Shown here: positions 1-13,748 of the stretch, piece by piece
Layout of the letters: the number at the start of each line of letters is the position of its first letter
Position numbering within the stretch: position 1 is the first letter of the stretch
Assembly (NCBI GenBank): GCA_902599405.1
Contig: CACKFO010000011.1
Location: forward strand, 1-40,371
DNA from: an uncultured Alphaproteobacteria bacterium
Lineage (GTDB): Bacteria; Pseudomonadota; Alphaproteobacteria; HIMB59
Direction of reading: 5' to 3'
Length of the DNA stretch: 40,371 bases
Translations under genes and position numbers: made by a program
Notes under the pieces: generated by a model
What the model was told of the DNA's origin: nothing
What the model saw: only the letters and a program-made list of their open reading frames with translations
The model's database searches: none

Positions 1-199
1 GATTTGAGATGATTTCTGATGCTTTTTTAACTAACTCTAATAAGTTTTGATAAATTTCATCTAAATCGTGTTCAATATAACCTTCATCTGTGATTATTTG
101 TCGGTGTTCCTTTTGAAATCTTTTTAAGACCTCTAATTTTTCATTAAAAACAATGACTGTCGTAGATGAAGTACTTGAGTCAATAGTTATATAACTCAT
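1..199 (-). CDS. FGGY-family carbohydrate kinase, N-terminus (partial, runs off left edge)
   Basis: About 66 residues are visible from ATG 199-197. They begin with the ATPase phosphate-1 motif of FGGY kinases (IDSSTSSTTVIVF) and continue with an EHDLDEIYQNLLEL stretch equivalent to the GWVEHDPEEI segment of glycerol kinase. The family phosphorylates polyols or ketoses in the cytoplasm. The start overlaps the stop of the upstream transketolase subunit by four bases (ATGA), so it is the last visible gene of the isomerase-transketolase-kinase operon and is probably translationally coupled. Substrate is not readable from this fragment; apulose or another ketose is plausible from context. The C-terminal half of a glycerol-kinase-like FGGY protein lies at 7846-8637 on the other strand without its N-terminus, so this copy may itself be broken just outside the window. 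Confidence 0.85.
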   Translation of the reverse strand, partial: MSYITIDSSTSSTTVIVFNEKLEVLKRFQKEHRQIITDEGYIEHDLDEIYQNLLELVKKASEIISN

Positions 200-1137
200 T
201 TGTTAATTAAGTCTTTTGATATTTTAGCTATTTTTTCCGGACTCATATCATAATGATCTAATACATCAGCTTGAGATCCATTAATCATATATTCGTCAGG
301 TATGCCAAGTATTTTGAGTTTTACATTTATATTATTTTGAGCAATCAGGCTCGCACAACATTCACCAAGTCCTCCAAATATACTATGTTCTTCGACTGTT
401 AAGATTGCTTTAGAGTTTTTAGAAAATTCAATAAATGTTTTTTTATCAAAGGGCTTTATTGTATGCATGCTGATAATTGAACAATGAATATTACTTTCTT
501 TTAAAATTTCACTAGCCAAGTATGCTCGTTGCAAAGTTTCACCAGTTGCTACAATTGTTAAATCCTCACCTTTTTTTACCACTATAGATTTTCCAATTTT
601 AAATTCTGTACCTGGAGGATGAATATCCATCATTGGTTTTTTTCCATATCTAATGTAAAGGGGATGACCATATGAAATAGCTTGTTTGATAGCTTGTGAT
701 GCTTCAAAGTTATCTGCAGGCGCAACTATTGTCATATTATTAATTGCTCTTAATGAAGCAAAATCATGAATTGAGTGATGCGTTGATCCTAACTGTCCAT
801 AACTAATCCCTGCACTAATTCCTATCAACGAGACATTGCGATCAGAATAAGCAACATCATTTTTAATCTGTTCTAAAGATCTTGCAGTTAAAAAACTCGC
901 AGGGGAGACAGCAAATACAATTTTTCCTCCTGCAGCTAAGCCTGATGAAACCCCGACTAAATTCTGTTCTGCGATACCTACTTCTATAATTTGATCAGGT
1001 AACTCTTTACCGAATGAAACTAATTTACCCGAACCTCTTGAGTCACTCGTTACAACAATAATATTTTTATTTTTTTTTGCCTCAGATAGTAATGTCTCAG
1101 AAAAAATTTCTAGGTTAGGTTTACCGATTTTATTCAT
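196..1137 (-). CDS. Transketolase, C-terminal subunit
   Basis: A 313-residue protein covering the pyrimidine-binding and C-terminal domains of a transketolase. The GIAEQN motif holds the glutamate (E57) that activates thiamine diphosphate. In two-subunit transketolases this chain pairs with the diphosphate-binding chain, here encoded directly upstream (8-base overlap, 1130-1137). The reaction is two-carbon ketol transfer between sugar phosphates. Split transketolases occur in general pentose metabolism but also in dedicated pathways such as apulose-4-phosphate transketolase (AptA/AptB) and sulfo-transketolase. The adjacent isomerase, FGGY kinase and sugar importer argue for a dedicated catabolic role. 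The symbol is left blank because specificity cannot be read from sequence. Confidence 0.93.
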   Translation of the reverse strand: MNKIGKPNLEIFSETLLSEAKKNKNIIVVTSDSRGSGKLVSFGKELPDQIIEVGIAEQNLVGVSSGLAAGGKIVFAVSPASFLTARSLEQIKNDVAYSDRNVSLIGISAGISYGQLGSTHHSIHDFASLRAINNMTIVAPADNFEASQAIKQAISYGHPLYIRYGKKPMMDIHPPGTEFKIGKSIVVKKGEDLTIVATGETLQRAYLASEILKESNIHCSIISMHTIKPFDKKTFIEFSKNSKAILTVEEHSIFGGLGECCASLIAQNNINVKLKILGIPDEYMINGSQADVLDHYDMSPEKIAKISKDLINK

Positions 1138-1957
1138 ATGAATTTAGTCTCTCATTCAGCTCTGAGATTGCCCTCCCATATTCATCATCGCTTGGCACTT
1201 TATGGTGCCAATTAATTTGATTTTCTATAAAACTTACACCGGACCCTTTAGTGGTTTTCGCAATTATGACAGTAGGCTTATTTTTTTGAATGGGTATTTC
1301 TTTAAATACATTTAATAATTCAGAAATATTATTTCCATTTGTTGAAATACTTTCAAAACCAAATGACTCAAATTTTTTATCAATCGGCTCGATTGGGTTA
1401 ACTTCTTCTGTTTTTCCTGTAATTTGTAAATCATTCCTATCAATAATTACAATTAAATTATCCAATTGATATTTAGAAGCAGTAGTGCAAGCTTCCCACA
1501 CTGAACCCTCTGATAGCTCTCCATCACCCAATAAAGCAAAAACTTTATTTGTTTTTTGATCTATTTTTTTAGATAGCGCTAAACCTACAGCAACTGAAAG
1601 GCCATGTCCTAAAGCGCCGGTGTTATGCTCAATTCCCAAAATTTTTCTAGTGGGATGTCCAATAAAATGAGAGTTAAAATGATTGAGTTTTTCAAGATCT
1701 TTTCTTGAAAAAAAACCTTGATCACAAAGAACGGTGTAAAGAGCCTCAACTGAATGACCTTTACTATGGATATAATGGTTTCGGTCTTTTTCGTTAAAGT
1801 TTTTAGGATTTATATCCAAGACCTTATTATATAAGACATTCAAAATGTCGATACATGATAAACTTCCACCAGTATGACCAGCGCCAGATTTATAAATAAT
1901 ATCTAATATGGCCTTCCTGTATTCTAAAGATTTTATTTTAAGTTGATTTAAGTCCAT
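1130..1957 (-). CDS. Transketolase, N-terminal (thiamine-diphosphate-binding) subunit
   Basis: A 275-residue protein matching the N-terminal domain of transketolase. The ThDP/Mg motif is GDGELSEG (144-151) followed by D173-R174-N175. Conserved histidines lie at H28 (GAGHTGG), H68 (SKGH), H101 (GHP) and H118 (LGHGLS). Single-chain transketolase is about 660 residues; this plus the next gene (313 residues) makes a split enzyme. It starts at ATG 1957, 23 bases after the isomerase stop, and overlaps the next gene by 8 bases. It is the second gene of a minus-strand operon: isomerase, transketolase N, transketolase C, kinase. Confidence 0.93.
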   Translation of the reverse strand: MDLNQLKIKSLEYRKAILDIIYKSGAGHTGGSLSCIDILNVLYNKVLDINPKNFNEKDRNHYIHSKGHSVEALYTVLCDQGFFSRKDLEKLNHFNSHFIGHPTRKILGIEHNTGALGHGLSVAVGLALSKKIDQKTNKVFALLGDGELSEGSVWEACTTASKYQLDNLIVIIDRNDLQITGKTEEVNPIEPIDKKFESFGFESISTNGNNISELLNVFKEIPIQKNKPTVIIAKTTKGSGVSFIENQINWHHKVPSDDEYGRAISELNERLNSYE

Positions 1958-1980
1958 TATTTATTGAATAGTAAATATTT

Positions 1981-2970
1981 TTAGTCTTGGGATAAATGTT
2001 TATATAAAGCTTTTTGAGCAATTTTTAAAGCAGCCATAGCATCATGATTTGCTTGAGCTTTTGTTAATGCTTCAATGTCTAAATCATTCAGGGCTTTGTC
2101 AACAGCTTTTAAAAAATCTATAGCGATATTTGCCATTACCACACTATCTTCTCTAAATGGAAACTGATCCAGTTGCCAAACACCTTCCCAATTATTTTTT
2201 CTTAGAACATAAAAAAATTCAAAAAGCTCTATGGGGTGAAGACTGCCAGCTAAAAGATCATCGTCCCATGATCTAAAGTTATCATTAACATCCATTCCAA
2301 ATAGCCTACCATAATCAATAGCTAATTGAGCCGAGTCAGCAGCTGACTCTCCACCATAAATAGCATGGCCAAAATCAAGAAGAAGTCCAATATTAGGAAG
2401 ACCTATTTTTTCAATACCAAGAATAGTTCTTGAAACAGAGTCATAGCTCATTTTTACCCTTGGCTCTCTTGGTTTATATTCTATTACGAAATTTAAATCA
2501 GTATTTTCACTTGCTAAATTTCCCACACCATCCATCGAATTTTTCCATAAAGATTTATGATCAACCTGAAAAGGATAGTCCCAACCATCTTGTCCAGGCC
2601 AAAGCTTAACATATTTGGCATTAAAAAATCTCACAGCCTCGCAAGCTTGAGTAATTAGTTCATGCGCTCTTTTTCTAATACCCGGATCAGGATTTGTGAA
2701 CGCTCCCTTTGAGAATTCTCTTGTATAAATTTCAGGAGTAATGCCAATCACTTTTAAATTAGCTTTATCGAGAGCATCTTTTATTTGCTCATTCGAGTAA
2801 TTTCCTCCAAAGTATGGAAAATTAAGATCTACGTATGAAAGGTCTTTTACTTGTCCAGCAAGTTCTATGGCATCAAGCACACTTCTTGGTTCACCATAAC
2901 CATCTGTTGCATATCTATCAAGATAGGTGGCAAAATGCCAAATACCTGCGCCAAACTCTTGTTTTTTCAT
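1981..2970 (-). CDS. RhaI-like TIM-barrel sugar isomerase
   Basis: About 329 residues from ATG 2970; a GTG two codons upstream (2976) is also possible. It is a xylose-isomerase-like TIM barrel most similar, from memory, to the Pseudomonas stutzeri type of L-rhamnose isomerase: [23 protein letters not shown] followed by [11 protein letters not shown], and LDQFPFRED. Counting from the GTG, the likely metal ligands are E166, D201, D229/N231 and D270, with H204 close by. The family converts aldoses to ketoses using Mn or Co. It heads the operon with the split transketolase and FGGY kinase and is divergent from the binding-protein gene at 3162. It could be a D-apiose isomerase, a rhamnose/lyxose/mannose isomerase or another aldose isomerase. 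The barrel assignment is secure, the substrate is not. Confidence 0.85.
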
Positions 2971-3027
2971 GATCACATTTTCTATTATTTAAATTATTTT
3001 AGCTATCAATAATTTTAATTAACTCAT

Positions 3028-3044
3028 TGTTCGAAAATTGAACA
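3028..3044. promoter_or_regulatory. Imperfect 17-base palindrome, candidate operator
   Basis: TGTTC and GAACA arms are separated by seven bases in the divergent intergenic region between the isomerase and the sugar-binding-protein gene. The size and symmetry suit a dimeric sugar-responsive repressor site, but a short AT-rich palindrome can arise by chance. Confidence 0.3.
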
Positions 3045-3064
3045 GTTGAGACGATATTTTTGTC

Positions 3065-3081
3065 GCAAATGTCTTATTTGC
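3065..3081. promoter_or_regulatory. Inverted repeat with 6-base arms, candidate operator or hairpin
   Basis: GCAAAT and ATTTGC are perfect arms with a five-base spacer. The element spans 17 bases, like the palindrome at 3028-3044, and lies upstream of the candidate promoter of the binding-protein gene. No T-tract follows, so it is not a terminator. Confidence 0.3.
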
Positions 3082-3102
3082 ATGATTTTTTTCAACATTT
3101 AT

Positions 3103-3132
3103 TTGGAATTGATCACAAAAATTGACTAATAT
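3103..3132 (+). promoter_or_regulatory. Candidate sigma-70 promoter for the binding-protein gene
   Basis: TTGGAA (3103-3108) and TAATAT (3127-3132) are separated by 18 bases, about 30 bases before the start codon. A strong Shine-Dalgarno sequence, AGGAGG at 3151-3156, follows and fixes the start at 3162. AT-rich DNA makes the promoter call tentative; the ribosome site is clear. Confidence 0.3.
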
Positions 3133-3161
3133 GCACTCGTTTATAAACATAGGAGGAATTT

Positions 3162-4064
3162 ATGAAAAAAATAATTCTTACAATTCTTGTATCATTCCTA
3201 TCTCTTTCTGCTTTTGCTGAGAGATTTGTAATGGTTACACACGGCGAGGGTAAAGACCCTTTCTGGCCTGTTGTGCAAAAAGGTGGTGAAGATGCTGCTA
3301 GACACGTAGGTGCAGATTTTGAATACATTTTCAATCCATCTGGAGACCTAGGTGACATGGCTAAGTCAATTGCAGCTGCCGCTGCTACTCAGCCTGATGG
3401 TATGGTAGTTTCACTTCCTGATCCAGAAGCTCTAGGTCAAGCAATCAAAGATGCTGTTGCTGCTGGTATTCCAGTTATTACTATGAACTCAGGTTTAGAG
3501 TCTTCAGCTTCTCTTGGCGCATTAATGCACGTTGGTCAGCCTGAATTTCTTGCTGGTCAAAAAGCTGGTGAAAGAGCTAAAGCAGAAGGTGCAACTAAAG
3601 CACTTTGCATGATTCAGGAAGCTTACAACACTGCTCTTACAGATAGATGTGGCGGTTACGCAGAAGCTCTACCAACAACTAACGTAGACACTTCTAATGA
3701 CCCTGCTTCAATCCCAACAAGAGCTGCTGCTGGTTTACAAGCAAACCCTGACGTCGATGCTGTATTATCAGTTGGACCACACGTTTGTTCAGGTGTTCAA
3801 AAAGCTATTGATGATTTAGGTATGTCAGTACATCACTCTTGTTTTGACTTAAGTCCAGAAGTTATGGATTTAATCGCTTCAGGAAAAGTTGCATACACAA
3901 TCGACCAACAACAACGTCTACAAGGTTATATGCCTATCGTAGTTCTTCACCTATACAACAACGGTGCTGGACTATTACCAGGTGCTAATATTCCTTCTGG
4001 ACCTGGATTTGTTGACAAGTCAAACGCATCATCAGTTTCTGCATTAGCAGGTATTGATAGATAA
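3162..4064 (+). CDS. Sugar ABC transporter periplasmic binding protein (ribose/fructose type)
   Basis: A 300-residue type-1 periplasmic binding protein (Peripla_BP_4 style). A signal peptide covers residues 1-19, with cleavage after SAFA. The mature protein has the alternating alpha/beta segments typical of this fold, including DPFWPVVQKGGEDAA near its start, and would capture a sugar for the permease and ATPase encoded at 4144-6518. It is preceded by AGGAGG, and its codons use more C-ending forms than neighbouring genes, consistent with high expression. A strong hairpin with a T-run follows the stop. It is clearly different from the FrcB-like protein at 8714 and so probably binds another sugar. 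Divergent orientation to the isomerase-transketolase operon suggests that operon's substrate. Confidence 0.92.
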   Translation: MKKIILTILVSFLSLSAFAERFVMVTHGEGKDPFWPVVQKGGEDAARHVGADFEYIFNPSGDLGDMAKSIAAAAATQPDGMVVSLPDPEALGQAIKDAVAAGIPVITMNSGLESSASLGALMHVGQPEFLAGQKAGERAKAEGATKALCMIQEAYNTALTDRCGGYAEALPTTNVDTSNDPASIPTRAAAGLQANPDVDAVLSVGPHVCSGVQKAIDDLGMSVHHSCFDLSPEVMDLIASGKVAYTIDQQQRLQGYMPIVVLHLYNNGAGLLPGANIPSGPGFVDKSNASSVSALAGIDR

Positions 4065-4079
4065 TTTTATTTAATCTCA

Positions 4080-4108
4080 AAGTGGGCAATTTATTGCCCA
4101 CTTTTTTA
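4080..4108 (+). terminator. Strong hairpin with T-tract between binding protein and permease
   Basis: An 11-bp perfect stem (4080-4090 pairing with 4095-4105), a TTTA loop and a T-run to 4108. It is a textbook intrinsic terminator but lies inside a transporter operon. The likely role is partial termination or 3'-end protection that makes binding-protein mRNA exceed permease mRNA. Confidence 0.85.
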
Positions 4109-4143
4109 TAAACTACAGAGAGTATTTATTTACATTTAATATC

Positions 4144-5727
4144 ATGTCAGCTACAACTCAAAGACAAGAGTCAGATAGACATCAAAAAAAGACATGGTTT
4201 ACAGCATTAATATCTAGACCAGAAGTCGGTCCAATAGGAGTGATGCTCCTTTTATTTGGTATGTTGGGCTACTTTTCAATTCCAGCTGGGGAGATGTCAT
4301 GGAACCCCTTTACCGGTGAGGGTTTTAATGCTCTTGGTATTAGAAATTTTTTAAGAGTTATTTCTCAATTAGGTATAATTGCAATAGGAGCAGGTTTATT
4401 AATAATCGCTGGAGAATTTGATCTTTCAATCGGATCAATGATTGGTTTCGCTGGTGCCTGCATGGCAATGATTTTAAGATGGGGTTTTTCAGTCATCATA
4501 CCTTACATATCTTTTGAGGGTGGTTTTCATATTGAATTTTACACGTTATTTCACATCTCTGATGTCTCTCCAATTTTAGCTATCTTTATAACTTTATGCT
4601 TCACTTTATTTTTTGGTTGGTTACAAGGAACTATTGTTGTGAAGTCTGGTTTACCATCATTTATTGTTACACTTGGGGGCTTATTTTTTCTCAGAGGATT
4701 AACAGAAGTTTCTCTAAGATCTTTTAATCATAGACCAGATCAGACAAAAGGGGCGACTACTGTCACAGAGATTCCAGATATAAAAAATATTGTAAATGTC
4801 CCTGGCCATGGAGAAATGGTAAGAGAAAAAGCGAAAGCTTTACCGGAAGCTGATCTAGTAGCTATAGCCAAAGATTTACCAGCTGATACAGTTGCAACAA
4901 TTACAGATAGATTAGAATACACTTACCAAAGAGTAGCCGAAGCCAAGACACAAATTTTGCTTGATAAAGGAACTAAACCTTTACAAGAGGCTTTAGCAAA
5001 TGCTCAGCAAAGTGGAAATGATTATATGGTTGGCATGATTCAAGAAAAAATTGCTAACTTTCAAATCGATCCAGTAGTACCAAAAACAGTTACTGATGTT
5101 GATATAGCAAGAGTTTATATTGACTCTCTCATTACTGCTCGCCCCGTTGCGAATTTTTTTGGTGGAGATATTTTAGAACCTGTTTTTGATTGGCTTTATT
5201 ACCCGGTTGACTGGAACACTAATAATTTTGGAAATCAGTTTGCCTCTGGTTTATATTCCTGCGTCATGATTTGGCTAATTTTAGCGATTATTTGTTACAT
5301 TGTACTGAGCAAAACTCAAGCAGGTAACTGGATTTACTCAACTGGTGGAAATCTGAGTGCAGCCAAGGCAAATGGTGTACCTACAGATAAGGTTAAAGTA
5401 TCTCTATTTATGTTTTCTGCTTTTTGTGCAACAATTTTTGCAACCGCTCAAGTTTTTGAAGTTAATACAGCAGATGCGGCTAAAGGTAATTTAAAAGAAT
5501 TAGAGGCAATTGCTGCAGCTGTGATTGGTGGTGTTGTTTTAACAGGAGGTTTTGGCACCATACTCGGTATTGTTGTAGGCGCATTTATATTTGGTGTTGC
5601 TAAAGAAGCATTCTTTTATATTCCAGGCATAGACGGATCATTTTATAGAGTATTCTTAGGGTTAGTAATCATAGCTTCTGCTTTGACTAACGAAAATATT
5701 AGAAAACGAATTATGGGTAGTATTTAG
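4144..5727 (+). CDS. Sugar ABC transporter permease (FrcC/RbsC family) with large internal insertion
   Basis: A 527-residue inner-membrane permease of the ribose/fructose group. Family landmarks are GEFDLSIGSMIGF (90-102), SGLPSFIVTLGGLFFLRG (168-185) and AKANGVPTDKVK (407-418). Usual length is 320-370 residues. The excess is a hydrophilic, charged, helix-prone stretch at about residues 196-335 (nt 4729-5148) inserted after the conserved FIVTLGG helix, plus a shorter one around 112-140. Membrane segments resume near 365. The reading frame is open and the core motifs intact, so this is a genuine insertion rather than a frameshift. It lies 79 bases after the binding protein, past the hairpin, and 2 bases before the ATPase gene. 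Confidence 0.9.
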   Translation: MSATTQRQESDRHQKKTWFTALISRPEVGPIGVMLLLFGMLGYFSIPAGEMSWNPFTGEGFNALGIRNFLRVISQLGIIAIGAGLLIIAGEFDLSIGSMIGFAGACMAMILRWGFSVIIPYISFEGGFHIEFYTLFHISDVSPILAIFITLCFTLFFGWLQGTIVVKSGLPSFIVTLGGLFFLRGLTEVSLRSFNHRPDQTKGATTVTEIPDIKNIVNVPGHGEMVREKAKALPEADLVAIAKDLPADTVATITDRLEYTYQRVAEAKTQILLDKGTKPLQEALANAQQSGNDYMVGMIQEKIANFQIDPVVPKTVTDVDIARVYIDSLITARPVANFFGGDILEPVFDWLYYPVDWNTNNFGNQFASGLYSCVMIWLILAIICYIVLSKTQAGNWIYSTGGNLSAAKANGVPTDKVKVSLFMFSAFCATIFATAQVFEVNTADAAKGNLKELEAIAAAVIGGVVLTGGFGTILGIVVGAFIFGVAKEAFFYIPGIDGSFYRVFLGLVIIASALTNENIRKRIMGSI

Positions 5728-5729
5728 TT

Positions 5730-6518
5730 ATGGAAAACAATAATTCACCATTTATAGAAATTACAGATCTTGTAAAAAAGTTTGGAACATTTACAGCTTT
5801 AAATGGTGTCTCTTTAAATGTCTTACCAGGAGAAGTTCACGCATTACTTGGTGATAATGGTGCTGGAAAGTCCACTCTTATTAAAGTTTTATCAGGAGTT
5901 CACCAGCCAACTTCTGGAATTATTAAAGTTGGAGGAAGTGAAGTAAAATTTAGCTCTCCAAGAGAGGCAACTAGTGCAGGTATCGGAACTGTCTATCAAG
6001 ATCTGGCACTTAATGCCTTGACCTCTGTCACACGAAATTTTTTCTTGGGAAATGAATTAAAAAAAGGACCTGGCCCTTTTGGAATATTAGATTTTAAAAA
6101 AATGGATGAAATTACGATTACTGAAATGGGAAAAATTGGCATAAATATCTCAGATCCTACTCAGCCAGTTGGAACTATGTCAGGTGGTCAAAGACAGACA
6201 CTTGCTATTGCAAGAGCTATATACTTTGGTGCTAAGATTTTAATTTTGGATGAACCTACATCTGCACTTGGGCAAAAACAACAAATGGAAGTTTTAAAAA
6301 CTATTAAAAAAGTCCAACAATTAGGGAATATAGCTATTATTTTGATCACTCACAATGAAATCCACGCAAGACTTATTGCTGATCGATTTACATTCTTAAG
6401 CTTAGGTGAAGTAATAGGATCTGGAAAGTCATCAGAATTAGGTGGAGATGATGTTAAGCGTTTAATGGCTGGCGGAGCTCAAATAGGTGATTTGGCCAAA
6501 GAGCTTGAAGCTGTATAA
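5730..6518 (+). CDS. Sugar ABC transporter ATPase (FrcA type, single domain)
   Basis: A 262-residue cytoplasmic ATPase energising the importer. Walker A is GDNGAGKST (41-49), the Q-loop is Q90, the signature is SGGQRQ (151-156), Walker B is LILDEP with D174/E175, and the switch histidine is H208. Ribose/xylose systems usually use a double-length ATPase of about 500 residues; this one is single domain, as in FrcA, and should act as a homodimer. It starts two bases after the permease stop. It resembles the ATPase at 10902-11666, so the two importers are distant paralogues. Confidence 0.95.
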   Translation: MENNNSPFIEITDLVKKFGTFTALNGVSLNVLPGEVHALLGDNGAGKSTLIKVLSGVHQPTSGIIKVGGSEVKFSSPREATSAGIGTVYQDLALNALTSVTRNFFLGNELKKGPGPFGILDFKKMDEITITEMGKIGINISDPTQPVGTMSGGQRQTLAIARAIYFGAKILILDEPTSALGQKQQMEVLKTIKKVQQLGNIAIILITHNEIHARLIADRFTFLSLGEVIGSGKSSELGGDDVKRLMAGGAQIGDLAKELEAV

Positions 6519-6526
6519 TATTTTTA

Positions 6527-7348
6527 CTAGTAAGAGCTAGGATTATTATCTTTATCAGACTCATCGTAGTTTTGATTAGTAAGCTCTTTGAATTTTCTCA
6601 CATGAGTGGCTGCTGCTCCAGATAACAACCTTACATCATTTGTAATTGTTACAAGATCAAAACCCCATTCGGATGCCTTGGCAGCATACTCTGGAGTCCC
6701 ACAATGAAGACATGCAACTTTTCCATGTTTATGAGCAATATCTAAAATTTTCTTTTTAGACTCAATCATCTCAGGTTCTGTTCGATCAAACCCAGGTGTT
6801 AACTTTCCTTGGTTCAGCCCTATTGTTAAATCTGCTGTCCCGATATAAAGGCCATCAAGACCAGGAGTGGATGCTATATCATCAAGATTATCAAATGCTT
6901 CTTGAGTTTCTATCATGGCAAGACAAAACGTTCCCTCATTTGACTCATAAAAATAATTTGAACTAACGGAAAAGTTAGCTCTCGTCGGACCAAAACTTCT
7001 AATACCTACAGGTGGATATTTACAATCTTGAACAAGTTTTTGTGCTTGCTCTTTATTATTAATCATTGGGCAAATGATACCCAAAGCACCTGCATCCATA
7101 ACTTTCGATATTACTGCGTGATCTAATCCTGAAACTCTACAGATTGGAGTGACACCACTATTTCTAATACTTTGCAACATTTTAAATAAATCACTAAAGC
7201 CAATCATCCCATGTTGATAGTCAATGGTAAGGGCGTCATAACCTTGCTCAGACATAATTTCAGCAGTAAAAGTATTAGGTATTGATAAAAAGCTATTAAC
7301 AACCACTTCTTTTTTTTGCCATTTAGCTTTTACTTTGTTTTCAATCAT
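6527..7348 (-). CDS. HpcH/HpaI-family class II aldolase
   Basis: A 273-residue TIM-barrel aldolase of the 2-dehydro-3-deoxyglucarate / 4-hydroxy-2-oxo-acid aldolase family. Seen residues: catalytic H46 in DYQHG, R71, metal ligands E147 (MIET) and D173 (GTADLT). Such enzymes reversibly cleave 2-keto-3-deoxy sugar acids to pyruvate (or a related oxoacid) plus an aldehyde, using a divalent metal. It is convergent with the ATPase gene (8 bases apart). Upstream on its strand, 75 bases away, is the truncated iolG-like gene, which may have been its operon partner. Substrate is unknown. Confidence 0.9.
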   Translation of the reverse strand: MIENKVKAKWQKKEVVVNSFLSIPNTFTAEIMSEQGYDALTIDYQHGMIGFSDLFKMLQSIRNSGVTPICRVSGLDHAVISKVMDAGALGIICPMINNKEQAQKLVQDCKYPPVGIRSFGPTRANFSVSSNYFYESNEGTFCLAMIETQEAFDNLDDIASTPGLDGLYIGTADLTIGLNQGKLTPGFDRTEPEMIESKKKILDIAHKHGKVACLHCGTPEYAAKASEWGFDLVTITNDVRLLSGAAATHVRKFKELTNQNYDESDKDNNPSSY

Positions 7349-7423
7349 TGAGTGTTAGATATCAAAATTATTTAAAAATATAATTATAACAATTATTTAT
7401 TATTAATGAATAAATGCATAAAT

Positions 7424-7849
7424 TTAATCAATATTCTCCATCCTCCCACTTTTGACAGATTTATAAGCAGTTTCAGCTAAGAGAAGAGCTCTTCTTCCGT
7501 CCTCAAAACCAACAGATACAGGCTTTTTTTCCAAAATTGTTTCGACAAATGAGCTAATAGAATTCATATAAGACTCCTGGTATCTCTCAATAAAAAAATT
7601 TAAATAGGGTTCACTCTTGTCAACAAACTCTGAATTGTATTTTTTCAATTCATGTGGCTTTCTATTTTCAGATATAACCATCCCTTTGCTACCAAACAAC
7701 TCAACTCTTTGATCATATCCATAAGTTGCTGATCTGGAGTTGTTTATATGACATTGTTTTCCCGAGGCTGTTTCCATTATAATCATCAAGGTGTCACTAT
7801 CATTTAATTCAGATTTAATTTTTGGATCTATTAAAGCATTAGAAATTGC
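7424..7849 (-). pseudogene. iolG-like inositol/sugar dehydrogenase, C-terminal remnant (5'-truncated)
   Basis: The longest ATG-initiated form has 121 residues (start 7789), but homology continues upstream in frame through ALIDPKI and NDSDT to about 7849. That segment corresponds to the LVDP...GDVDT region of inositol 2-dehydrogenases. The GKQCHINNSRSATYGYDQR and FGSKGM motifs are the conserved substrate-domain signature of IolG-type Gfo/Idh/MocA enzymes. The NAD-binding Rossmann domain and EKP motif, roughly the first 200 residues, are missing. At the break the sequence switches to a kinase reading the other way (7846). The surviving piece cannot bind NAD and is presumably non-functional. Confidence 0.85.
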
Positions 7850-7852
7850 AAA
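7840..7852. other. Rearrangement breakpoint joining two 5'-truncated genes
   Basis: To the left is the interior of an iolG-like gene read on the minus strand; to the right is the interior of an FGGY kinase read on the plus strand. Both lose their N-terminal halves here. No transposase, terminal repeat or target duplication is visible. It could be an inversion junction, a deletion between divergent genes, or an assembly chimera. Confidence 0.7.
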
Positions 7853-8637
7853 TACCTATAATTGGAGTTGCTGGTGATGCGCAAGCTTCATTTTTCGCAA
7901 ATTTTTGTTTTAATAAAGGTGACACTAAAATTACGACAGGAACTGGTTTTAACATTCAAACAAATATTGGTAATGAAATGGTTATCGATGAAAATTCACT
8001 AACCTCCCTGGCTTTCACAAATGATAAAGAGAATATCTACGCATTAGAATGCCTAAACTCATTTGCTGGAGGAACAATTTCATGGCTTAAAAATAATTTA
8101 AAATTAATTAGTAAGGCTGAAGATAGTGAAATCTTATCAAAAAAAGAAAAAGATAATAATGGGGTCTATTTAATACCTGCCTTTTCAGGGCTAGGTCCTC
8201 CATTTTGGATAACCGACGCTAGGGCTGCATTCTTTGGAATAAGTGCTTCTACAAATACCAATCATTTAGTTAGAGCTGGACTAGAGTCTGTAGCTTATCA
8301 AATGGTTGTGTATTTAGAGTTTATGAAAAAATCAAGAAATCTAAATTTAAAAAACTTATCTGTTGATGGTGGTATGGTTAAAAATAAGTTTTTCCTTCAA
8401 CTTATTAGTAACCTTTTAGAAATTGAGTTAAATATTCCTAAAATGGAGGATATGTCATCTTATGGTGCGTTACTTTTTGGAATGCAATATTATCATAATT
8501 TAAAAAATACAAGTGATTTAAAGGATTTTAAGGTAAAAAACTCTAAAATTACCCCTAATAAAGATGATACAATCAGAAATTCATTTAATTCCTGGAAAGA
8601 AATAGTTGATAAACATTTCGTGAAAAATCAAGACTAA
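7846..8637 (+). pseudogene. FGGY kinase, C-terminal remnant (5'-truncated)
   Basis: 263 residues from a TTG codon, covering only the second actin-like domain of a glycerol-kinase-like FGGY kinase. It starts at the IPIIGVAGDAQASFF motif (around residue 255 of a full enzyme) and includes VYLIPAFSGLGPPFW, GLESVAYQM, VDGGMVKN and MSSYGALLFG. The N-terminal domain with the phosphate-1 loop is absent and a TAG (7840-7842) closes the frame just upstream. Homology begins exactly where the iolG-like remnant ends on the opposite strand, so both genes are cut at one point. An FGGY N-terminus exists at 199-1 on the minus strand. It lies directly upstream of frcB. Confidence 0.85.
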
Positions 8638-8660
8638 AAAATTAAAATTTAACTAGCAAG

Positions 8661-8705
8661 TTGACATGACAATAGGATATTCTGAACATAACTATATAAA
8701 GGAGG
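8661..8705 (+). promoter_or_regulatory. frcB leader: consensus -35 hexamer and strong ribosome-binding site
   Basis: TTGACA (8661-8666) is a perfect -35 hexamer, but no good -10 sits at the right spacing, so the promoter is tentative. AAAGGAGG ending at 8705 is a strong Shine-Dalgarno site and decides the start of frcB at ATG 8714 rather than the ATG at 8666. Confidence 0.35.
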
Positions 8706-8713
8706 AAATAACT

Positions 8714-9748
8714 ATGAGAAAATTATCTCTAGTTCTAGCTTCACTTATGGTTGCTGCTTTTACTTTTGCTACTATGCCAGCAAAAGCAGGAAGCCATGCT
8801 GTTGAAGCTTGTTTAATTACTAAAACAGACATCAACCCTTTCTTCGTTAAAATGAAAGAGGGAGCAGAAGCGAGAGCTAATGAATTAGGTGTCAAATTAT
8901 CATTCTTTGCGGGTAAAGTTGACGGTGACCACGAGACTCAAGTAAGAGCTATTGAGACTTGTATTGCTTCAGGTGCAAAAGGTATTTTAATTGCTGCATC
9001 TGACACAAAAGCTATTGTTACTCCATTAAAAAATGCTCAAGACAATGGTTTACTAGTCATTGCACTTGACACACCACTAGAGCCAATTACAGCTGCAGAC
9101 TCTACTTTTGCAACTGATAACTTCAAGGCAGGTGAATTAGGTGGAGCATGGGTTGCTGCAAAGTTAGGAGCAGATGCTGCTAATGCCAAAATTGCAATGT
9201 TAGACCTTAACGAGAGTCAACCTTCTGTTGGTGTTCTTAGAGATCAAGGTTTCTTATCTGGATTTGGTATCGATGTAAAAGATGTTTCCAGATGGGGAGA
9301 TGAAGATGATCCAAGAATTATCTGTAATGAAGTTACAAACGGTAACGAAGAAGGTGGAAGAACTGCAATGGAAAAATGTCTGCAAAAAGACCCAGACATA
9401 AACGTTGTGTACACTATTAATGAGCCAGCAGCTGTTGGTGCTTATGAGGCATTAAAAGCAGTTGGAAAAGATGATGGTAGCGTTCTTATTGCTTCAGTTG
9501 ACGGAGGTTGCCCAGGTGTAGCTGACGTTGAAAGAGGAATTATAGGTGCTACATCTCAGCAATACCCATTATTAATGGCTTCACTTGGTGTTGAGGCTAT
9601 TAAAGCTTGGGCTGAAGATGGTTCAAAGCCTGAAAATACTCCAGGTCTTGACTTCTTTAACACTGGTGTGAACTTAGTTACAGATGATGCTGCTAGCGGA
9701 GTTCCATCAATTAGTGTCAAAGAAGGTATGGATAGATGTTGGGGTTAA
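8714..9748 (+). CDS. frcB: Fructose-type ABC transporter periplasmic binding protein
   Basis: 344 residues from ATG 8714. The signal peptide is about residues 1-25 with an AKA cleavage site. The mature sequence is a type-1 sugar-binding protein closely resembling FrcB of rhizobia: [17 protein letters not shown], then [31 protein letters not shown], and VDGGCPGV near the hinge. It delivers fructose, possibly also ribose or mannose, to the permease and ATPase at 9808-11666. The start is chosen by AAAGGAGG eight bases upstream; the 16 residues before it in the longer frame are not signal-peptide-like. A stable hairpin follows the stop. Fructokinase and phosphofructokinase at 21062-23068 support fructose as the cargo. 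Confidence 0.92.
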
Positions 9749-9764
9749 TCCAATAATTTTATTA

Positions 9765-9790
9765 TTCAGGGCAGATTATTCTGCCCTGAA
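9765..9790 (+). terminator. Stable hairpin between frcB and frcC
   Basis: A perfect 10-bp stem (9765-9774 pairing with 9781-9790) with a six-base loop. The following T-run is interrupted, with the six Ts arriving about ten bases later. It is more likely an mRNA-stabilising or attenuating element than a full terminator, and mirrors the hairpin after the other binding-protein gene. Confidence 0.7.
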
Positions 9791-9807
9791 GTTATGATAT
9801 TTTTTAA

Positions 9808-10902
9808 ATGAATAAAGTTTCTGATGACATTTCTAAAGATCTAAAAGATCAACCTAAATTCACAACTGATATAGGAGAAAAAGATCAAGATCATCACTCT
9901 TTTGATTTAGGTGAACAAACTACACTAAAAAAAATTCAACATTTTCTTCACGGTAATCCAACAATAGTTCCTGTTATTATTTTAATATTAAGCGTTATTG
10001 CATTTGGCTTCATCGCTGGAGGAAAATTTTTCTCTGCTTTTAATTTATCTCTGATTGTACAACAAGTTACAATTGTCGGTATTCTTGCAGCTGCTCAAAC
10101 TTTAATAATATTAACTGCTGGAATTGATTTAAGTGTTGCTGCAATGATGGTTTTAGCATCAGTATTTATGGGTAAGCTTTCTGTTGAAATGGGAGTTCCA
10201 ACCCTCCCAGCAATAGCAGTAGGGTTTATCTCTGGTATTGCAACAGGCGCTTTCAATGGGATACTGGTAACTCGCTTAAGATTGCCTCCGTTTATAGTTA
10301 CTTTAGGAACTTGGAATATATTTTTTGCACTAGTAATATTCTTTACTGGATCTCAATCTATTAGAAGCTCCGATATTGAAGTAAATGCTCCTCTTCTGCA
10401 CTTTTGGGGAGAGAGAATAAATCTTGGGGGTTTTGTATTCACTTACGGTGCGTTCCTCATGATTGGTATTTTCGTTTTTCTCTGGTTTTTACTCAATAAA
10501 ACTGCTTGGGGGAGGCATGTATACGCAATTGGCGATGATAAGGAGGCTGCTGAGTTATCAGGTATTAGAACTGATAGGATGTTAGTTTCAATTTATGCTG
10601 TTGCTGGTCTTGTTGTTGCTATTGGAGCATGGGTTTCCATAGGTAGAGTTGGTTCAGTGTCTCCAACATCTTTTTATGAGGGTAACTTAGACTCCATCAC
10701 AGCTGTTGTGATAGGTGGAACTTCTCTTTTTGGTGGAAGGGGCACTATAATTGGCTCTTTATTTGGAGCTTTGATTGTGGGTGTATTTAGCTCAGGTCTG
10801 TCCATAGCAGGTCTTGATGTATTGTGGCAAAGATTTGCTTTAGGTTGTCTTATTATAGTAGCTGTTGGAATAGATCAATGGATAAGAAAGGTCTCAGCAT
10901 AA
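9808..10902 (+). CDS. frcC: Fructose-type ABC transporter permease
   Basis: A 364-residue multi-spanning permease of the RbsC/FrcC family with a long cytoplasmic N-terminus (about 50 hydrophilic residues). Family motifs: AGIDLSVAAMMVL, RLPPFIVTLGTWNIF, DDKEAAELSGIRTDR and TAVVIGGTSLFGGRGTI. It is normal length for the family, unlike the paralogue at 4144. It forms the membrane channel of the FrcBCA importer. Its TAA shares one base with the ATG of the ATPase gene (TAATG, 10900-10904), implying coupled translation. Confidence 0.94.
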   Translation: MNKVSDDISKDLKDQPKFTTDIGEKDQDHHSFDLGEQTTLKKIQHFLHGNPTIVPVIILILSVIAFGFIAGGKFFSAFNLSLIVQQVTIVGILAAAQTLIILTAGIDLSVAAMMVLASVFMGKLSVEMGVPTLPAIAVGFISGIATGAFNGILVTRLRLPPFIVTLGTWNIFFALVIFFTGSQSIRSSDIEVNAPLLHFWGERINLGGFVFTYGAFLMIGIFVFLWFLLNKTAWGRHVYAIGDDKEAAELSGIRTDRMLVSIYAVAGLVVAIGAWVSIGRVGSVSPTSFYEGNLDSITAVVIGGTSLFGGRGTIIGSLFGALIVGVFSSGLSIAGLDVLWQRFALGCLIIVAVGIDQWIRKVSA

Positions 10903-11666
10903 TGCAGCCAGTGCTAGTAGCAAATAAGTTGTCAAAAAAATACGGTAAAGTTGTTGCACTCGATAGTGCTGATTTAGAGCTTTATCCAGGTGAGGTTTTG
11001 GGAGTAATTGGAGACAATGGTGCTGGAAAATCTACACTAATTAAGGTGTTATGTGGTGCTGTTATCCCTGATAGTGGTGAAATATTGCTTGATGGAAATA
11101 AAGTTACTTTTACATCACCTATAGAGGCAAGAAAATTAGGTATCGAAACTGTTTATCAGAACCTTGCACTTTCACCTGCTTTATCAATCACTGATAATAT
11201 GTTTTTAGGCAGAGAAATTAGACAAAAAGGTTTTATGGGTAGTTTTTTAAAATTTTTAGATAAAAAAGCAATGGCAGATGAAGCTAGAAAACGACTGTCT
11301 GATCTTGGTCTATTAACCATACAAAATATAAATCAATTAGTTGAAACATTGTCTGGAGGCCAACGGCAAGGTGTTGCAGTTGCAAGAGCAACATCATTTG
11401 GAACTAAAGTCGTTATTATGGATGAGCCTACTGCCGCACTAGGTGTCAAAGAAAGTAGAAGAGTTTTAGAATTAATCGGTGAGGTGAGGTCTAGAGGAAT
11501 TCCCATCATATTAATTTCTCATAACATGCCTCATGTTTTTGAAGTAGCCGATAGAATACATATTCATAGACTTGGAACCCGATTATGTGTAATTGACCCA
11601 AAGAAACATGAAATGTCTGATGCTGTCGCATATATGACAGGTGCTAAGCAACCACCTCAAGATTAA
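10902..11666 (+). CDS. frcA: Fructose-type ABC transporter ATPase
   Basis: 254 residues from ATG 10902, chosen because it overlaps the frcC stop by one base and matches the usual FrcA N-terminus; a longer frame from 10824 would overlap frcC by 79 bases. Walker A is GDNGAGKST (37-45), Q-loop Q86, signature SGGQRQ (151-156), Walker B IMDEP with D174/E175, switch H207. It is a single-domain ATPase acting as a dimer. The gene ends at 11666, its stop overlapping the stop of the convergent frcK-like gene within a shared TTAA. Confidence 0.95.
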   Translation: MQPVLVANKLSKKYGKVVALDSADLELYPGEVLGVIGDNGAGKSTLIKVLCGAVIPDSGEILLDGNKVTFTSPIEARKLGIETVYQNLALSPALSITDNMFLGREIRQKGFMGSFLKFLDKKAMADEARKRLSDLGLLTIQNINQLVETLSGGQRQGVAVARATSFGTKVVIMDEPTAALGVKESRRVLELIGEVRSRGIPIILISHNMPHVFEVADRIHIHRLGTRLCVIDPKKHEMSDAVAYMTGAKQPPQD

Positions 11667-12301
11667 TTTATTAAATTAAATTCAGCAGAAATACTTTTAC
11701 TAATAACATTTAATCCATTTGGAAGATCATTTTTATAAACTTTATTTTTAATTTGATCATTAGATAGCCCATAACTCTCCCATCTTTCAATTAATCTTTT
11801 TTCTAAAATATCTTTATTGCAATCAATCATTATAGTTGTGTCAAAAAAATTATGAATTTTTCTCCATGGTTCTTGATCAAGCAATAAATAATTACCCTCT
11901 ACTATTATAATTTTTGTATTCTCAGATATGACTAATGCAGATGATCTTGATAGTTCTAATGATCTATCAAAGATAGGAACAATTACTTCACCCTCGTTTT
12001 TTAATCTTAATAAACAATTTAATAAACCTAGTACATCAAATGTTTCCGGTGCCCCTTTTCTCTCAATCAATTTTTTTTTCTCAAGAATATTATTATCTAG
12101 ATGGAAACCATCCATTTGAAGAACACTTGATTTGTGGTTTTTTGATATTAGTTCAGACTTTAATTTTTCAGATATTGTGCTTTTTCCAGATGCTGGCGCT
12201 CCTGAAATTGCAATAAAATAACGACTTTGATTAATTTTAATAACATTTTCTAATATTTTGTTTACTAATTCAGGGAATTCTATTCTTTGGTTACTAGACA
12301 T
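11663..12301 (-). CDS. FrcK-like P-loop kinase (uridine kinase / phosphoribulokinase superfamily)
   Basis: 212 residues. The P-loop GAPASGKST (34-42), MDGFHLDN, RKGAPETFD and IIVEGNYLLL are hallmarks of the uridine-kinase-like family that includes FrcK, the fourth gene of rhizobial frcBCAK operons. Phosphorylation of a sugar or nucleoside is expected, but the true substrate of FrcK-type proteins is not settled to my knowledge. It overlaps the upstream xylulokinase gene by eight bases and so belongs to a xylB-frcK operon. It is next to frcA but in the opposite direction, so the usual frcBCAK order has been rearranged. Confidence 0.85.
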   Translation of the reverse strand: MSSNQRIEFPELVNKILENVIKINQSRYFIAISGAPASGKSTISEKLKSELISKNHKSSVLQMDGFHLDNNILEKKKLIERKGAPETFDVLGLLNCLLRLKNEGEVIVPIFDRSLELSRSSALVISENTKIIIVEGNYLLLDQEPWRKIHNFFDTTIMIDCNKDILEKRLIERWESYGLSNDQIKNKVYKNDLPNGLNVISKSISAEFNLIN

Positions 12302-13748
12302 TTTTTCCTAAATAAAAGCTTTTCCACCTTAAAAATCTGTCTTTTAAGATATCCCTTTGAATTTCATTCTTACCTATAATTTTTTTGACTTTTGGAAGAC
12401 TAAGGGCTTCTCTTGGTTTTAAATTATTGTAACCAAGAAATGCTATTCTAGCAGCACCAAAAGCAGCCATTGTATCTGAAGCATCTGTTATAGATAAATC
12501 TCTCTCCATCAATGAAGCAAGTATTTGTATCCAGCTATCATTTCTAGAACCACCTCCTATTACAAAGATGTTATCTAACTTTATACCTGTCTTAACTAAG
12601 GAAGAATAATTATCATACAAACCGAAAGAAATACCTTCTATTAAACTGTAGATTAATGTATCTCGATTAGTGTCAATACTCATTTCGTGAAAACTTGCTC
12701 TTATATGAGGGTCATTAATTGGGGTTCTCTCACCTGTCAGATAAGGAAGATAATAAGGGTATCTATTTATTTCAGAAAAATTATTTAAAACAGAACTTAA
12801 CACTTTATTAATCTCATCAATTGATGAATTAAAATTATTTATAAACCAATTAACATTTGAGGTACAAGAGAGCATCACTGACATAAGATGCCATGTTTCT
12901 GGTAAGCAGTGGCAAAAGGAATGTATAGCATCATCATAATTTTTTAAAAAATTTTTTGTTGAACCAAAAATTACACCAGAAGTACCCAAAGATAATGAAG
13001 CATTTCCCTCTTGGTAAAGCCCTAATCCAACAGCGGCTGCAGCATTATCTCCTGCTCCACCAAATACTTTGCAAGAGTTATTAAAGCCATATTTTTCTGC
13101 AATATCTTTTTTAATTACACCTGTTTGATCAGTCCCCTCACAAGTTTTAGGCATTTGCGAGATATCCATTGAGCCAATGTCTAAAAGTTTATTAGACCAA
13201 GTTCTATTTTTAACATCTAACCAATAAGTGCCTGCTGCGTCTGACAAATCACTAAAAAACTCTCCCGTTAAATAAAACCTTAAATAGTCTTTCGGCAATA
13301 AAACCTTTGCAATTGATTTAAAATTTTCACTTTCGTGTTCTTTCATCCATAAGATTTTTGGAGATGTAAAACCAGGCATTGCTATATTTCCAGCTATATC
13401 CATAACAGTTTCGTCAGCCATAATTTGACTGCACTGCTTAAAACTACGTGTATCATTCCAAAGTATACATGGCCTTATGACCTTATAATTTTTATCAATA
13501 CAAGTTGCACCATGCATATGTCCGGAAAAAGATACAGCTTTAATCTGCGATAAATCAAATTTTAAAACAATTTGTTTGATACACTGATCTAACGCTTTTA
13601 TCCAAAATGATGGATCTTGTTCTGACCAGCCATTTTGAGGCGTGGACAGTGGTATATCTTCACTAATAACACTCAACAAAATTTCTTGTTCTTCTCCAAG
13701 TAGCAAACACTTCATCGAAGAAGTACCAAGATCAATACCTAAATACAT
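12294..13748 (-). CDS. xylB: Xylulokinase
   Basis: A 484-residue full-length FGGY kinase of XylB type. N-terminal phosphate-1 loop IDLGTSSMK with D6, FSGHMHGAT (74-82), LWNDTR (97-101), catalytic base D234 in GGAGDNAAAAVG, and GGGSRNDSWIQI near the C-terminus. The key residues match E. coli XylB (D6, D233). It phosphorylates D-xylulose to D-xylulose-5-phosphate for the pentose phosphate pathway. A D-lyxose isomerase 2 kb away could supply D-xylulose. It is the first gene of a two-gene minus-strand operon and is divergent from the aldolase-like gene at 13809 (60 bases between). Confidence 0.9.
   Translation of the reverse strand: MYLGIDLGTSSMKCLLLGEEQEILLSVISEDIPLSTPQNGWSEQDPSFWIKALDQCIKQIVLKFDLSQIKAVSFSGHMHGATCIDKNYKVIRPCILWNDTRSFKQCSQIMADETVMDIAGNIAMPGFTSPKILWMKEHESENFKSIAKVLLPKDYLRFYLTGEFFSDLSDAAGTYWLDVKNRTWSNKLLDIGSMDISQMPKTCEGTDQTGVIKKDIAEKYGFNNSCKVFGGAGDNAAAAVGLGLYQEGNASLSLGTSGVIFGSTKNFLKNYDDAIHSFCHCLPETWHLMSVMLSCTSNVNWFINNFNSSIDEINKVLSSVLNNFSEINRYPYYLPYLTGERTPINDPHIRASFHEMSIDTNRDTLIYSLIEGISFGLYDNYSSLVKTGIKLDNIFVIGGGSRNDSWIQILASLMERDLSITDASDTMAAFGAARIAFLGYNNLKPREALSLPKVKKIIGKNEIQRDILKDRFLRWKSFYLGKNV

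Follow-up and report, generated by a model that had tools for sequence, protein, structure and literature searches.

An inverted join that cuts iolG and an FGGY kinase gene in a HIMB59 alphaproteobacterial contig is probably an amplification chimera

Two genes that are broken at one and the same point raise the question of whether a chromosome was rearranged or whether only its assembly was. The window analysed here, 40,371 bp in length, is the entire contig C11 of assembly G000 (34 contigs, 1.26 Mb, 89% complete), and nothing therefore lies to the left of position 1, which is a contig end. A Pfam profile search confirmed the gene calls of the initial annotation: the FGGY_N start, the transketolase halves, the TIM-barrel isomerase, the sugar-binding protein, the HpcH aldolase, the GFO/IDH/MocA C-terminal domain and FGGY_C (Table 1). 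That annotation had the C-terminal parts of an iolG gene (minus strand) and an FGGY kinase gene (plus strand) meeting at one point, at about 7846, both without their 5′ halves. This holds, with the join now placed at 7851-7857: positions 7427-7852 (-) match C-terminal GFO/IDH/MocA models only, and 7846-8634 (+) match FGGY_C only. The kinase N-terminus reported at the left edge (199-1, minus) is also borne out, since positions 2-199 (-) cover positions 2-59 of the 245 in FGGY_N before the frame runs off the end of the contig. To judge from relatives, the pieces at 1-199 (-) and 7851-8637 (+) would belong to the same kinase gene.

Table 1. Features of the left part of the window and of the join
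Feature	Positions	Strand	Basis
FGGY kinase start, first 66 residues, cut by contig end	1-199	-	Pfam FGGY_N; corresponds to the beginning of the single kinase gene of L031
Transketolase as two genes: C-terminal 199-1137, N-terminal 1133-1957	199-1957	-	Pfam
Xylose-isomerase-like TIM barrel	1981-2976	-	Pfam AP_endonuc_2
Sugar ABC transporter (binding protein, permease, ATPase)	3162-6518	+	Open frames; Pfam for binding protein and permease; NCBIfam matches below cut-offs for permease and ATPase
HpcH/HpaI aldolase, immediately downstream of iolG	6527-7348	-	Pfam HpcH_HpaI; same order in L031
iolG (inositol 2-dehydrogenase), C-terminal part, N-terminal ~190 residues missing	7427-7857	-	Pfam GFO_IDH_MocA_C; intact homologue L031:1938-2942, TIGR04380 over cut-off
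37-column stretch in which both parental sequences are alike (78%); imperfect inverted similarity in L031	7829-7865		Overlap of two BLAST matches
Glycerol-kinase-like FGGY kinase, C-terminal part	7851-8637	+	Pfam FGGY_C; intact homologue L031:10165-11640
Junction: 7-bp microhomology AATACCT, common to kinase (+) and iolG read on the other strand	7851-7857		Alignments with both parental sequences in L031 (G013) and L033 (G007)

Layout of the locus in relatives

A DNA search with positions 7000-8800 of the window covered 60 relatives, 36 of them from the same genus, and the resulting classes were counted by hand. Both pieces lie on one contig in 17 of the 36 same-genus genomes, and in all 17 they are in opposite orientation. 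This group includes G029, which consists of a single 1.41-Mb contig and is 99% complete. The spacing of the pieces is 8.3-8.9 kb in 16 of the 17 and 13.5 kb in G019; in the nearest relatives (G013, G016 and G007) it is 8.33 kb. Five genomes carry the pieces on different contigs (G010, G012, G018, G023 and G034), 13 gave one piece, a short match or no match, and G006 lacked a match to the C-terminal part of the kinase.

The locus of G013 (L031) illustrates the arrangement that these relatives carry. Its order is iolG, aldolase, ABC transporter (on the opposite strand), isomerase, transketolase N, transketolase C, an intact kinase of 491 residues, and then a binding protein, permease and ATPase, which are the frcBCA genes of the initial annotation. 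The ancestral layout proposed there, with isomerase, the two transketolase genes, intact kinase and frcBCA in a row and with iolG followed by the aldolase, is thus found in relatives. The intact oxidoreductase of L031 is an inositol 2-dehydrogenase, iolG (TIGR04380, 397.5 bits against an NCBIfam cut-off of 355), and the intact FGGY kinase is nearest to glycerol kinase, although its score for TIGR01311 (466.7 bits) is below the NCBIfam cut-off of 590.35. The iolE gene adjoins iolG on the side that is missing from the window. Compared with the sugar/inositol cassette of same-genus relatives (iolE, iolG, aldolase, ABC genes, transketolase and kinase), the window has the same gene content and, after the block is flipped, the same order, but both iolG and the kinase gene are cut.

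Positions 1-7865 match the nearest relatives in reverse and in one piece, at about 98%, and positions 7829-40371 match G013 in forward orientation throughout. The join is therefore the sole break in order relative to G013, and this one inverted join accounts for both broken genes. Judged from L031, the kinase is cut approximately 230 residues from its start, close to the 250 or so that had been predicted, and approximately 490 bp are missing between position 1 and the kinase site.

The join and its missing counterpart

Seven or more shared bases were found in 0.1% of 400,000 random breakpoint pairs, so that a microhomology as long as the one at the join is seldom met by chance. The longer 37-column similarity around it is of ordinary rank as a repeat: it stands 22nd among 713 inverted near-repeats in 15 kb of L031, with a score tied with others. 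The best local alignment of the whole kinase gene with reversed iolG scores 24, against a mean of 23.5 for codon-shuffled sequences, and 28 of 60 shuffles score as high. For window positions 1-12000, the repeats listed (20 direct families out of 56 and 25 inverted pairs out of 78) include no long repeat at the join. In a pattern search that allowed up to three mismatches, the join was present in one of 52 genomes of the genus, namely G000 itself. This set comprises one genome per species, and 10 of the 52 reach a completeness of 90% or more. The search would miss a diverged copy and therefore leaves room for the join among close kin or in relatives that have diverged. Comparison of relatives for both orientations, as had been suggested, thus yielded the parental layout in every informative genome and the orientation of the window in none of the other 51.

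An inversion should leave a second join, between the N-terminal halves of the kinase and iolG. None was found in G000, and the contig ends approximately 490 bp before the expected site. The chance of a contig ending so close to the second breakpoint is approximately 3%, as estimated from 68 contig ends in 1.26 Mb. The iolG N-terminal half, the middle of the kinase gene and the 22 kb upstream of iolG in G013 also gave no true DNA match in the 89%-complete assembly. A profile search of G000 with GFO_IDH_MocA gave six matches, all in frames of 304-412 residues, and the missing iolG half was not among them; the two FGGY_N matches are the contig-end piece and an intact kinase, and the missing kinase half was not found.

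The broken pieces show no sign of decay. Both keep open frames and a purifying pattern of differences. For the C-terminal part of the kinase compared with seven relatives, pN/pS runs from 0.016/0.12 (nearest) to 0.112/0.64 (most distant), and the C-terminal part of iolG has zero to two amino-acid-changing differences in 140 codons relative to the six of seven relatives that matched.

Other contig ends at this locus were examined over their last 0.4-2 kb only. No inverted join was seen in 26 end segments of 2 kb from 13 loci (some of these segments are not contig ends); L045 lacked any match to the references used over its first 2 kb, and L047 gave only a weak match of 161 bases over its last 2 kb. 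Of 16 other listed contig ends (14 distinct, with two contigs in the set twice), 14 map to G013 in one piece with no inverted join, and the remaining two, which are the same end, lack a match to G013. One start position does coincide with the window's join: position 1 of G006:C3 (L047) falls within AATACCT in the kinase gene. A post hoc estimate, based on the 14 distinct other ends and the 20 kb or so over which they map, gives this coincidence a probability of roughly 1%, and it may point to a genuine weak spot there. However, one single-cell workflow is described as trimming 100 bp off contig ends, and the meaning of the coincidence is therefore doubtful.

Origin of the join

We consider it very probable that the join at 7851-7857 is a template-switch chimera formed during multiple displacement amplification (MDA), and hence an artefact of single-cell whole-genome amplification. 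During MDA with phi29 polymerase, a displaced strand whose 3′ end had been copied from the kinase gene would have paired, through AATACCT, with displaced iolG DNA, which is 8.3 kb away in the nearest relatives, and the strand would then have been extended back across the block. The product would join the reversed block, from iolG to the kinase, to the kinase C-terminus and the genes that follow it. This chimeric path would have been taken during assembly, with the contig stopping approximately 490 bp before meeting the kinase C-terminus again. The real chromosome would then have the layout of the relatives, with kinase and iolG both whole, and reads from G000 would be predicted to show the parental joins.

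The amplification history of G000 is itself deduced from its relatives and its contigs. GORG-Tropics cells were reportedly amplified by WGA-X/MDA. All 20 named loci that were retrieved from relatives carry AG- codes, as single-cell genomes do; nine of the records are titled 'MAG:' and 11 are not, and both labels occur within the same AG- series. One source identifies the codes AG-899, AG-893 and AG-894 as single-cell GORG-Tropics genomes (PMC12416821), and two others describe similar marine cells whose DNA was amplified with phi29 polymerase, either by MDA or by the WGA-X variant (PMC10224968, PMC5519541). Such workflows keep contigs of >2000 bp (PMC10224968, PMC5519541, PMC6122165), and the last G000 contigs, C30 to C34, fit this cut-off at 2630 to 2023 bp, the last of them (C34) being 2023 bp long. 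We infer that G000 is a single-cell genome amplified by MDA.

Published MDA chimeras resemble the join in several respects. In the data of Lasken and Stockwell (2007, PMC1855051), 406 of 475 chimeras (85%) are inverted, the parents lie <10 kb apart in 337 of the 406, and 93.5% of the inverted chimeras spanning <10 kb have complementarity of at least 2 bp, with up to 21 bp. In the window, likewise, the second segment is inverted relative to every relative with both pieces on one contig (17/17), the parents are 8.33 kb apart in G013, G016 and G007, and 7 nt are complementary at the junction, within the published range of 2-21 nt. However, those chimeras were seen in single reads, whereas the join stands in an assembled contig. 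Human MDA data favour overlaps of 12-13 nt and distances of 80-280 nt (PMC5372508), unlike the 7 nt and 8.3 kb seen here. As for frequency, a similar workflow, when benchmarked, produced 1.5 misassemblies per 100 kb (PMC6122165), which scales to about 19 for 1.26 Mb. Small genomes had the fewest misassemblies in that benchmark (P. marinus), and 19 may therefore be too many.

The main alternative is a real chromosomal inversion, as initially favoured. Microhomology-mediated template switching or end joining would have inverted the 8.3-kb block very recently and broken the kinase and iolG in this one lineage. Microhomology-mediated inversions are known in bacterial chromosomes and leave a short shared sequence at the inverted breakpoint, as in the window. 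The geometry fits one inversion exactly, the 7-bp microhomology would also fit repair in vivo, and the locus looks recombinationally active, in that cassettes differ among relatives. The start of a G006 contig at the same kinase site and the room left by the pattern search for close kin and diverged relatives also speak for this reading. Nevertheless, neither a second breakpoint nor a second genome with the join was found, and the pieces look undecayed; the iolG N-terminal half and the kinase middle were not found in the assembly, the contig ends just short of the other breakpoint, and the commonest MDA chimeras have this shape (PMC1855051). We therefore regard a chromosomal inversion as unlikely, and as less likely than an MDA chimera, which is preferred because the join was found in G000 alone, its second half is missing, decay is not apparent in the pieces and such a chimera would have the features seen. 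Thus, the claim that one inversion explains both broken genes stands as geometry, a single inverted join, but is not supported as a chromosomal event, and the assembly chimera that had been listed as an alternative is now the better reading. The more specific proposal that a natural, very recent inversion occurred at a weak spot of the kinase, where G006:C3 also begins, so that one marine lineage lost the function of a sugar kinase and of an inositol dehydrogenase in a single step, seems to us distinctly improbable. If an inversion were real, the window would show a microhomology inversion soon after it arose in streamlined marine bacteria.

Two further explanations carry far less weight. The segment might be reversibly invertible, with the imperfect 37-column inverted similarity as its recombination sites. 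This similarity does lie exactly at both breakpoints, and the G006 contig end falls at the same site, but several other inverted near-repeats in the same 15 kb score equally, the sites are inside two coding frames, and the second orientation was found in none of the other 51 genomes of the genus, which makes this reading highly implausible. A deletion of the 5′ halves of both genes with fusion of the remains, also listed as an alternative initially, would account for the loss of both halves at one point. However, parents in opposite orientation in all informative relatives cannot yield the observed arrangement by deletion, which would also leave unexplained why the kinase N-terminus sits at the opposite end of the block. 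On the orientation in relatives we have rejected a deletion, which has next to no chance of being correct.

An MDA chimera at this locus would carry a warning for the use of single-cell assemblies, from which gene loss or inversion is hard to trust, in that a template switch at a short shared sequence can mimic a clean knockout of two genes.

Variation of the cassette among relatives and further kinase and transporter genes

Loci L059-L065 share 95-99% identity with the window in the flank past the kinase and only 84-85% in the transketolase and ABC parts; in L059, where this was looked at, a gene of 467 residues replaces the isomerase. G019 matches positions 1969-7865 at 98.5% and the transketolase at 72%, with approximately 5 kb of extra DNA in between, whose frames resemble, by eye, an ABC transporter and SDR enzymes. 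Judged from such alignments, these mosaic alleles suggest an exchange of whole sugar cassettes among relatives. Within the window, the ABC permease at 4144-5727 is unusually long (527 residues), and an insert seems to interrupt its permease domain; the best Pfam stretch comprises residues 366-512, and a second one counted as well. The same contig carries a second, intact FGGY kinase at 13026-13748 (-), in a frame of 492 residues.
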